35,832 nt of DNA from positions 1 through 35,832 of the forward strand of contig JAKSBK010000151.1 of the NCBI GenBank assembly GCA_022361155.1, in the 5' to 3' direction. How positions within the stretch are numbered: the first letter of the stretch is position 1; every line of letters starts with the position of its first letter. The notes below the pieces were generated by a model, which had not been told where the DNA came from, ran no database searches, and worked only from the letters and a program-made list of their open reading frames with translations. Source of the stretch: Pseudomonadota bacterium. Its GTDB lineage: Bacteria; Myxococcota_A; Polyangia; Polyangiales; JAKSBK01. The translations under genes and the position numbers were made by a program. Shown here piece after piece: positions 6,950 through 35,832 of the stretch.

Positions 6950-9900
6950 GACGCCTTGAAGAGCCAAATACGCAGCAGCGACAGCAGCCTGTCGATATCG
7001 ACGGGTTTCGTCATGTAGTCGTTGGCGCCGGCGTCGAGGCACTTGGCTCGATCTTCGAGCATGGCCTTGGCCGTGAGCGCGATGATGGGAAGCTCGGCAA
7101 AACGTTCTTGAGCGCGGATGCGGCGCATGGCTTCGAAGCCATCCATCACGGGCATCATGATGTCCATCAGTACCAGTTCGATGTCGTTTTCGTGCGCGAG
7201 CTTCTCGAGCGCCATCCGGCCGTTGTCGGCCATGAGTACGTGCAGGCCGTGCTGGCGCAGGACGCGAGAAAGCGCGAAGGTATTGCGCATGTCGTCGTCG
7301 ACCAGCAGCAGCTGCCGTCCCTGGAGCATTTCGTCAGGGTCATGCAGCATGCGTATGATCTGCTGCTGCTCGGAAGTCAGCGAGGCATCGACAGAGTGCA
7401 AGAAGAGCGTGGTTTGCTCGAGCACGCGCTCCTTCGTGGGAGCCTGCTTGACAACTGCGCGGACCCGGCGTCGCAGCCGGCGTGCCAGCGCTGGGGGCAA
7501 GGGGGAGCTCGAATGGACGATCACCGGGGGCAGAGGATCGAGGTGGCCTCGAGCGTGCTCGTCCAGCAGTGCCCTTGCTGTCTGTCGTGGATCCGAGGTG
7601 TTCACCACGATGCAGTGGCAGCGTCGAGCGGCGCACATGCCGAGGGCCTGTCCTGCCGTAGAGGCCAGCTGCACTTCGGTTTGCCGGTTTTCGAGCAGCG
7701 GAACCAGAGACCGGCCGCCATGGTCCTGGGACTCGATCACGAGCACGTGGCGGGCATCTTCGGAGAGGTACTCCTCGATACTGCCGAGGGCGGCTCGTAT
7801 GGCGTCGGCGCTGGCCGGCTTGCGCAGGAAGCCCACCGCGCCATGGCTACGTGCCAGATCGCCTGCGTCCCTGCCCGACAGGACGTGTACCGGAATATGG
7901 CGGGGCCTGGGGTCGTACTTGAGCTGGTCGAGCACTCGGGCACCTGGGATATCCGGCAGGCCCAGGTCAAGCAGAATCACGGTGGGTCTCATACCCAACG
8001 CAAGCTGCAGGGCGCTCGCGCCGTCGGGGGCCGCCACGCACCTGTATCCCCGGCTGCGGGTGAGCTCGACCAGCGCCTGCGCGAAGCTTGGGTCGTCCTC
8101 GACTACGAGAGCGACCTTGTCGCCTCGGGCGATCCGGTTCCGGTCGTCCTTGACAAAGCCGGCCCCGCAGGTGCTGAGCGCGCTCACGGGCGCGGGAGTA
8201 GCCCTGGCAGCTGCCTCCCCGCGAGCAGAGGGTCGCTTCGAGTTTCCCTTGTGCCTCGCGCTCTCCTTGGCCGGCGCGGCAACGGAAGAGGCCGGCGAGG
8301 ATCCGTTGCGCCTCGAGGCAGCAGTACTTGCGCCTGTGCTCGAAGGCGCGCCCCGAGCCGACGCGGAAACGCTCATGGCGTGGCCGACCGGCATCGACTT
8401 CCGCCCTGGCGGCAATGAGCCCCCGGCGGGAAGATAGAGCGTAAAGGTGCTTCCCTTGCCCAGCTCGCTTTGAAGCTGCATCTCGCCACCCAGCAGGAGA
8501 GCGAGCTGGCGTGAGATCGATAGACCCAGGCCGGTGCCTCCGTACTGGCGGCTGGTGCTTCCGTCGGCCTGACAAAAGGCATCGAAAATGGATTCCTGGC
8601 GATCCCTGGGGATCCCCGGGCCCGTGTCTCGGACAGAGAAGCCAACGGCCCCGACCGATCTCAGCTTGGGGTTGCGCAAGACCGTGTCCTTCGCCGGTGC
8701 GTGCACCGTCAGCGTGACCGATCCTTGCTCGGTGAACTTGAGCGCATTCGAGAGCAGGTTCTTGAGCACCTGCCGGACGCGGTGGATGTCTGTGGAGATG
8801 AACCCGGGCAGATCGTCGGCATGTTCGATCAAGAACTTCAGGCCTTTGACCTGCGCGTGGGCCTCGAACTGGTCCTTGAGTCCATGGAGAATGCCGGCGA
8901 TCTCGGTTGGCTGAACGTCGACTTCCAGCATGCCGGCTTCCACCTTGGACAGGTCGAGGATGTCGTTGATGAGCGAAAGCAGATCCTCCCCACCGTGATG
9001 GATGATCTCGGCCGCCTTGACTTGCTCCTCGCTGAGGTTGCCATGCTCGTTGTCTGCCCGCGATCTGGACAGGATCAGCAGACTGTTCAGGGGGGTGCGC
9101 AGCTCGTGCGACATGTTGGCCAAGAACTCGGACTTGTATGTGTTGGCTAGCTCGAGCTCGCGAGCCTTTTGCTCCGTGACCGTCTTGGCGGCTTCAAGCT
9201 CGGCGTTTTGCTTGGCCATGGCAGCACGCTGCCTCTCCAGGGAGTCGGTCTTTTCCTCGAGCTCCTGGTTCGCTGCCTGCAACTCCTCGCTCTGCACCTT
9301 CAAGCTGTCCTCGGACTCCTTCAGTGCCTTGGTCTGCTCTTCGAGGGTCTCGTTCGCGGCTTCGAGGTTGTGCTGCTGTCCCTGGAGCTCGCCGGCCTGC
9401 CGTTGCGTCTCGTCGAGCAATTCCTGCATCTGTTGGCGCGCCTGCGCAGAGCCGAGCGCGATGGCGACGCTTTCGGAGACCGAGCTCAAGAGCTCGAGCT
9501 GCGCCTCGCTGAAGGGCTCGAAGGCAGCCAACTCCAGAACGCCTTTCACGGCCTCGTTGTGCAGCAAGGGTGTGACCACGAGATGCCGAGGAGGGCTCTG
9601 CCCCAAACCGGAGCGCACCACGACGTAGTCATCCGGTACCTCGCTCACCACGATGCGCTCCTTTTCGAGAGCCGCCTGTCCTACAAGACCCTCTCCGGGC
9701 TGGTAGCGGTTGCTCAAGTGCTTACGTTGCGTGTAGGCATGGCTGCCAGCGAGCTGCAAAGATCCGTCTTGCTTGGCGACGTAGAGGGCACCGACCGGGG
9801 CATTCAGGTACTTGGCCAGGTAGCTCACGACCCGGCGGGCCAGTGCCGCGATGTCTTGCTCTCCGCGCATGGCTTCCTGCAGCTCGGCGGCTCCCGTCTT

Positions 9901-19152: not shown

Positions 19153-20583
19153 GTGGGCTACAGGCGATCAGGTGCATGGTCGTGCGTCGTTGTGCTCGTG
19201 GCCATTCCGGCGCTCGTCCGGGCTCAGCCGTTTGTCGCCGTCGAGGCAAACGGGCTCGTGCCGATCGTGAACGCTGCATCGAGCCCTCAGCCCCAGCTTG
19301 ATCTGTTTGGCCTTGGGGGTTCCCTGTCCGGCACGCTCCTGATCGCGCCGGTGCGCTCGCTGCTGATCGGCGCCAGGCTGCGGGGCGGGTTGCTGCTCGA
19401 TGGCGAGGCACCGCTCGATCGCGGTCGCAGCGATCCAGGGATCGGGTCCTTTGCTACGCTCAGCGGGTTGGTCCGCCTGCATCCGCTCGCAGGTGCGGGT
19501 ACTGGTGAGCGGTCGCGAGGCCCCTTCGTCGAGCTCGGCGCCGGGGGGGCGTTGACCGGCGACCTGGTGCGCACGCAGCTCGAGCTGGGCATGGGCTACG
19601 GTTTGACGCTCGGCAGGCTGAGGCTGGCGCCAACGGTTCGCTACGTTCAGATCGTGCAGCCAGGCAGCAATTTCGACACTCGAGACGGGCGCTTGCTTGT
19701 GTTGGGGGTGGAGCTGCTCGCCCTTGATGTGCGTCGCGACCTGTTGCAGCCGACGTCGGCTTCAAGTGTGGACCTCGACGGGGACGGGATCGTCGATTCC
19801 GAAGATCTGTGTCCGCTCGAGCCCGAGGACCTGGATAGGTTTCAGGACGAGGATGGCTGTCCCGATCCCGACAACGACAACGACGGCATTGCGGACATCA
19901 AATCCCGCTGCCCCTTGGAGCCAGAGGACCTGGACGGTTTTCAGGACGACGATGGCTGCCTCGACCCCGACAACGACGCCGATGGGATAGCCGACGCGCA
20001 GGACGCATGCCCGAACCGCGCGGAGGTGATCAACGGCATCGACGATCAGGACGGCTGCCCGGATCAGGGCGTGATTCAAATGATCGATGACCGCATCGTC
20101 TTGGACGAGTGCGTCCTGTTCGACTTCTCGCGTGCCAGAGTCAAGCGCGTTGCGCGTCCCATCGTCGAAGCGATCGCCGGTCTCGTTCGGCAACACGCGG
20201 AATGGAGGCGCATGCGTATCGAGGGTCATACCGACATACGCGGCAGCGACGAGTTCAACATGTGGCTCAGCACTCGCCGGGCTCACAACGTGCGCAAGGC
20301 GCTCATCGAGCATGGCATCGACGGCGAGCTTCTCGAAGCCGTGGGGTTCGGCAGAAGCCAGCTTACGGATACCGGAAGGTACCCGGACGCGCACCAGCGC
20401 AACCGTCGCGTAGAGTTCGTCGTGGTGACCCGGCACCCGTCGGTGCACCCGTCGGTGCAACCATCGATGCAGCCATCGATGCCCCCGACGGCCGAGCTGG
20501 CAGCGCAGGCCCGGACTGGCGAACGAACCGAGGCTCGTGAGGCCCAAGCGCTGTCCGATCGGTCAAAGCCGAGGTTGCCGTGA
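19153..20583 (+). CDS. OmpA-family protein with thrombospondin type 3 repeats
   Basis: An outer-membrane protein predicted to bind peptidoglycan. GTG 19153 begins a signal peptide ending near LVRAQ (about 24). Residues 25-200 look like an outer-membrane beta-barrel, with alternating hydrophobic strands and Gly turns (LLIGARLRGGLLL, FVELGAGGAL). Residues about 205-290 carry calcium-binding thrombospondin type 3 motifs (DLDGDGIVDSEDLCP, DNDNDGIADIKSRCP, DNDADGIADAQDACP). The OmpA C-terminal domain (about 305-425) has EGHTDIRGSDEFNMWLSTRR and the usual GFGRSQ / RNRRVEFVV end. A tail of four 12-bp repeats encodes HPSV/QPSM units. The stop TGA overlaps the next gene's GTG as GTGA, so the two are probably translated together. 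Confidence 0.93.
   Translation: MGYRRSGAWSCVVVLVAIPALVRAQPFVAVEANGLVPIVNAASSPQPQLDLFGLGGSLSGTLLIAPVRSLLIGARLRGGLLLDGEAPLDRGRSDPGIGSFATLSGLVRLHPLAGAGTGERSRGPFVELGAGGALTGDLVRTQLELGMGYGLTLGRLRLAPTVRYVQIVQPGSNFDTRDGRLLVLGVELLALDVRRDLLQPTSASSVDLDGDGIVDSEDLCPLEPEDLDRFQDEDGCPDPDNDNDGIADIKSRCPLEPEDLDGFQDDDGCLDPDNDADGIADAQDACPNRAEVINGIDDQDGCPDQGVIQMIDDRIVLDECVLFDFSRARVKRVARPIVEAIAGLVRQHAEWRRMRIEGHTDIRGSDEFNMWLSTRRAHNVRKALIEHGIDGELLEAVGFGRSQLTDTGRYPDAHQRNRRVEFVVVTRHPSVHPSVQPSMQPSMPPTAELAAQARTGERTEAREAQALSDRSKPRLP
20434..20481 (+). repeat. 12-bp tandem repeat in OmpA tail
   Basis: Four tandem 12-bp units (cacccgtcggtg twice, then caaccatcgatg and cagccatcgatg) encode HPSV HPSV QPSM QPSM. The repeat is in frame and extends the region after the peptidoglycan-binding domain. 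Length variation between strains is plausible. Confidence 0.8.
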
Positions 20584-22669: not shown

Positions 22670-25730
<3,061 letters not shown>

Positions 25731-25771
25731 GGGTCGCTCGTCCGGCCGCTCCGCCTGCGCCAGAGCCGCGG

Positions 25772-35085: not shown

Positions 35086-35670
35086 ATGGCAAAGCTAATT
35101 CCAAAGCCCCGGATGGGCATCGGTGAACAGTCCTATGTGCCGGAGATCGCCAAGGGTCTGGCCGTGACCATCAAGCGCTTCGCGAAGAACACCTTCCTGC
35201 CGCGGGACAAGGGTGACATCGTGACGCTGAACTACCCGGAGGAGAAGCTCACCTATCCAGAGCGGTTTCGAGGTGTGCATCGTCTCACGCACCGCAGCGA
35301 CGGTTCTCCGCGCTGTGTCGCGTGCCTGTGCTGCAGTACAGCTTGCCCTGCCCAGTGCATTCACATTGAAGCGGCCGAGTACGAACCAGACGACCCGCGC
35401 TACGGCTACGAGCGTTATCCCAAGGTATTCGTGATCGACGAGCTACGCTGCATCTTTTGCGGTTACTGCGTAGAGGCATGTCCTTGCGATGCGATTCGCA
35501 TGGACACGGGCGTGCATATGCCCCCTTCGACTCGTCGCGAGCACTTCATCTACGACAAGGAAGACCTGATGGCCATACCGGGCGCGGACGGAACCTTCGA
35601 GACCGCCAACCCGCGTCACGAGCCCGGCGACTCGAGCCACCCGGGGATCGACCGGGAACGAGGGCATTGA
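35086..35670 (+). CDS. nuoI: NADH-quinone oxidoreductase subunit I
   Basis: The 8Fe ferredoxin-like subunit of complex I that passes electrons towards the quinone site. Two 4Fe-4S motifs are clear: C77, C80, C83 with C87 ([12 protein letters not shown]) and C122, C125, C128 with C132 ([12 protein letters not shown]). The opening helix ([15 protein letters not shown]) and the end motif [11 protein letters not shown] also fit. The 194-residue length is normal, with a disordered acidic/Ser tail. ATG 35086 is 23 bases after the nuoG stop. It is the last nuo gene visible; a stem-loop and a tandem repeat array follow. Confidence 0.96.
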
Positions 35671-35690
35671 GCCGGAGCCTTGCCCGGGTC

Positions 35691-35715
35691 GGGTGCTCGC
35701 TTGCGCGAGCCCGCA
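35691..35715 (+). terminator. Stem-loop after nuoI
   Basis: GCTCGC (35695-35700) and GCGAGC pair around a TTGC loop, with extra GC pairing outside a bulge. It begins 20 bases after the nuoI stop. There is no T-tract, so it may be a 3'-end hairpin and not an intrinsic terminator. Confidence 0.3.
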
Positions 35716-35747
35716 TCGCTCACCGATTTCGAGGGGGTCAGTCCTGG

Positions 35748-35832
35748 CGGTTGTCGGATGCGACAGTGCGGTTGTCGGATGCGACAGTGCGGTTGTCGGA
35801 TGCGACAGTGCGGTTGTCGGATGCGACAGTGC
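35748..35832. repeat. 21-bp tandem array with palindromic core
   Basis: Four identical 21-bp units (starting 35748, 35769, 35790 and 35811) and the first base of a fifth run off the window. Each contains TGTCGGATGCGACA, a 5-4-5 inverted repeat. The base-pairing can also form the other way, CGACA across seven bases to the next TGTCG. There are no spacers, so this is not CRISPR. The 21-bp spacing equals two helical turns and would put every palindrome on the same DNA face. A REP-like GGGGGTCAG lies just before the array. It may be a protein-binding array or a variable-number repeat. Confidence 0.85.

Follow-up and report, generated by a model that had tools for sequence, protein, structure and literature searches.

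Short tandem repeats are found within bacterial genes, with intragenic arrays in Legionella pneumophila as one example (PMC2639597). A second described class, the palindromic amphipathic repeat coding elements (PARCEL), is built from 25-residue units (PMC2996958). Here we examine a tandem array of short palindromes at the right end of a stretch of 35,832 nucleotides (the window), which had been read from the sequence as a helically phased series of sites for bound proteins. We find that the array is very probably an in-frame coding minisatellite that has expanded recently. Its host, of which it forms the 3' end, is a gene conserved in Myxococcota whose product has a HARE-HTH domain and an Mrr-like domain.

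The array and its continuation on a second contig

Tandem Repeats Finder reports a repeat of period 21 at the window end, with 4.1 copies and 100% matches (positions 35747 to 35832, read on the minus strand), and copies of the 14-base core TGTCGGATGCGACA begin at 35752, 35773, 35794 and 35815. The claimed number of at least four perfect 21-bp units holds, and chance comes nowhere near explaining four perfect 21-mers. The window is the entire contig C151, so the array is truncated by the contig end and not by a border that someone chose. Outside the window, TGTCGGATGCGACA has three copies in the 5.41-Mb genome, all of them on contig C249.

This second contig (L008, 10,111 bp) continues the array: read on the minus strand, its first 79 bases are identical to window positions 35737 to 35815, and its first 30 bases have a single occurrence in the window. 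Beyond the 79 common bases the two part, with a fourth perfect unit in the window versus a diverged unit, then unique sequence, in C249. Reading beyond the window end, as the original prediction proposed, thus reveals a complete array of three perfect units and one diverged unit inside a gene on C249, as against at least four perfect units on C151. The diverged unit, ACTGTCGAACCCGATAACCGC, differs from the perfect one at three bases, and two of these differences change an amino acid.

The join between C151 and C249 is based on sequence overlap, not on reads, and the variation in unit number is that between two contigs of one assembly. Unequal unit numbers of this kind would be as expected for a variable minisatellite; they may reflect either a mixed population in the sample or one wrong contig end. 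It is possible, if rather unlikely, that the unit number of C249 is the true one and that the window closes with a wrong extension. Such an assembly error would affect nothing but the number of units and would leave the coding reading intact. In its favour, the array is terminal on each of the two contigs, and these disagree after 79 common bases; against it, C249 has its three perfect units and one diverged unit independently. Because C249 carries these units in an intact frame, the array exists in any case.

The host gene

An open reading frame of 686 amino acids on C249 (L008:8050-10110) runs through the array and stops just past it, ending in TVEPDNR TVASDNR TVASDNR TVASDNR QD and a stop codon. 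The minus strand of the window reads TVASDNR four times, then QD and a stop, in the same frame and with the same stop as on C249. Window positions 35738 to 35832 (minus strand) are the 3' end of this gene, with its TGA at 35738-35740, and the rest of the gene is on C249. Each 21-bp unit is seven codons (T-V-A-S-D-N-R): the array lies in an open reading frame and its unit length is divisible by three, as in an in-frame coding minisatellite.

The host protein has two Pfam domains above cut-off, HARE-HTH (PF05066; E=4.8e-19, 69 bits versus a gathering cut-off of 25.9) and Mrr_cat (E=3e-11), followed by a long C-terminal tail of low complexity that looks disordered. This tail holds a second in-frame tandem repeat upstream of the array (18 bp, 2.8 copies, positions 1811-1860 within the gene that begins at 8050), with the protein sequence GAEIKAGTEIKAGAE. 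A sequence search of the PDB with the host protein gave no match, and NCBIfam gave no named family. What we take to be the usual catalytic residues, D...(E/Q)xK, seem to be missing from the Mrr-like domain, and judged by its sequence the protein, encoded next to ddl, may have a nuclease fold that is conserved but inactive. A segment R-G-x-L/M-H-x-Y/F is conserved between the host protein and its orthologues.

A scan of genome contigs yields 23 relatives whose best segments show 43-54% identity (higher in two short matches), with titles that include Myxococcota, Myxococcales or Deltaproteobacteria MAGs, among others. A ddl-like gene adjoins the orthologue in every one of the 23, just as it does on C249. 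In a search with the Pfam model, 36 of the order's 38 genomes examined have HARE-HTH, almost all of them in a single copy.

The tails of the orthologues look disordered, and several have repeats of their own (DDSDDDSD and DRDRGR in L019, DAVHVD in L020, RGRDE in L036, DRDR in L037). These repeats sit in tails and linkers and are unrelated to the 21-bp unit. In an order-level set, which was fetched by Pfam model and partly repeats genes of the 23 relatives, all 44 strong tandem-array calls, those with a score of 70 or more (11 genes; calls partly overlap), have periods divisible by three, and these periods are mostly not near multiples of 10.5.

On the other side of the array lies the convergent gene nuoI (plus strand, 35086 to 35670), called from its open reading frame and from NCBIfam as NADH-quinone oxidoreductase subunit I; its best NCBIfam matches are all NuoI, yet under their curated cut-offs. 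With the stop side of nuoI at 35670 and the array starting at 35747, the array does follow the last nuo gene, as had been claimed. The relatives do not show this adjacency: nuoI or nuoG is near the orthologue in none of the 23 within the flank examined (at most 3 kb). Between the two stop codons is a 67-bp gap (35671 to 35737) with a GCTCGC-TTGC-GCGAGC hairpin that lacks a T-run, and this gap folds no better than shuffled sequence (z of 0.95 and 0.41). Scans for terminators and promoters at the right end of the window found none, and an Rfam scan of the window gave no match.

Two further features of the window lie away from the array. An 11-bp repeat, GATCGGTCATG, occupies 25688-25736 (3.8 copies, 93% matches in Tandem Repeats Finder) and spans the start of a minus-strand open reading frame (24225-25697) and the bases just upstream. 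The open reading frame at 19153-20583 has an OmpA-like C-terminal domain, and its best NCBIfam match is TraB, an outer membrane exchange protein, far under cut-off.

What the palindrome could mean

How surprising is the palindrome itself? Arms of 5 bp with a loop of 3-8 appear in 3.3% of shuffled units and in 5.8% of random synonymous codings of TVASDNR. All perfect units descend from one, and for this reason the palindrome counts as a single event that was copied. Chance would produce it somewhat rarely, and the array RNA folds slightly better than its shuffles, which together leave room for a minor extra role of the array. In the diverged unit one Watson-Crick pair is lost, and it can persist as G-U in the mRNA.

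One such role would be in RNA: hairpins formed near the mRNA's 3' end, or by nuo transcripts that read through, could help to terminate or stabilise RNA where the two genes converge. The better fold of the array RNA is seen on both strands (z about -2.4 against shuffles), but structure is a trivial outcome of a palindromic repeat. The array also precedes the stop codon, has no T-run and no terminator-like site, and is not conserved in the relatives and genomes searched, so we regard this role as very improbable.

We give still less credence to the idea that the palindromes are operators, with a dimeric regulator on each 14-bp core and the 21-bp spacing placing all of them on one face of the DNA, in control of nuo or of the neighbouring gene. 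The perfect 5-bp arms and the spacing of two helical turns are what make it attractive. Against it, the array is within coding sequence at the 3' end of a gene, between convergent genes and away from either start. The periods of the orthologue repeats differ as well, and the strong calls among them are all multiples of three. Because the units are seven-codon repeats, their spacing follows the genetic code and not the turns of the helix, and the coincidence of 21 bases with two such turns requires no further cause.

Nor does the core behave as a conserved binding site. A search of 183 further genomes from the order did not find the paired core (up to 3 mismatches), nor do the loci of the 23 relatives have the TGTCG-N4-CGACA core, and the array DNA is in none of 56 other genomes searched. 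Within the genome itself, TGTCG-N4-CGACA recurs at 13 further sites; their centres differ, and 11 are enclosed by open frames no shorter than 585 nt. These searches show a core neither conserved in relatives nor tied to promoters. The original prediction had named in advance the finding that would speak against it, namely a variable copy number with no core conserved in relatives, and as far as this can be tested it is what we see. Nothing that we tested favours a protein-binding array. A second function of the coding repeat at the level of DNA or RNA is likewise exceedingly doubtful; one form of it would be a site that the HARE-HTH protein recognises in its own gene, with unit number tuning expression.

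A gene tail that has probably expanded

We return to the in-frame coding minisatellite. Replication slippage or unequal recombination would add and remove units, and the tail would tolerate such gain or loss only in multiples of three bases, so that the frame is kept. The palindrome would then merely follow from the codon run GTC GCA TCC GAC. We infer both slippage as the mechanism and the near-neutrality of the repeat. The recent expansion that had been proposed fits well with perfect copies beside a diverged one and with unit numbers that differ between C151 and C249, while the helical phasing for bound proteins proposed along with it gains no support.

The practical lesson is that a contig break can mask the fact that a repeat is coding. 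An apparently intergenic, phased array of operators here belongs to the tail of a gene, the remainder of which is on another contig. Apart from this lesson, the array is an ordinary coding minisatellite.

Comparison with known systems

With operator arrays for DNA-binding regulators the locus shares repeated palindromes and a spacing near two helical turns, but it has a coding location at the 3' end of a gene, no conservation and no promoter context. It resembles PARCEL in combining tandem coding repeats with dyad symmetry of the DNA. PARCEL units are amphipathic and widely dispersed, whereas here seven mostly polar residues are repeated in one gene of one genome; by this description, a unit of 7 residues in place of 25 sets the array outside PARCEL. 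The closest likeness is to the intragenic in-frame repeats of bacteria (VNTRs). The present array differs from these in its HARE-HTH/Mrr-like host protein and in that the only variation observed is that from C151 to C249 within a single assembly, and it shares with them short tandem units in an open reading frame, a unit length that is a multiple of three and an apparent difference in copy number.
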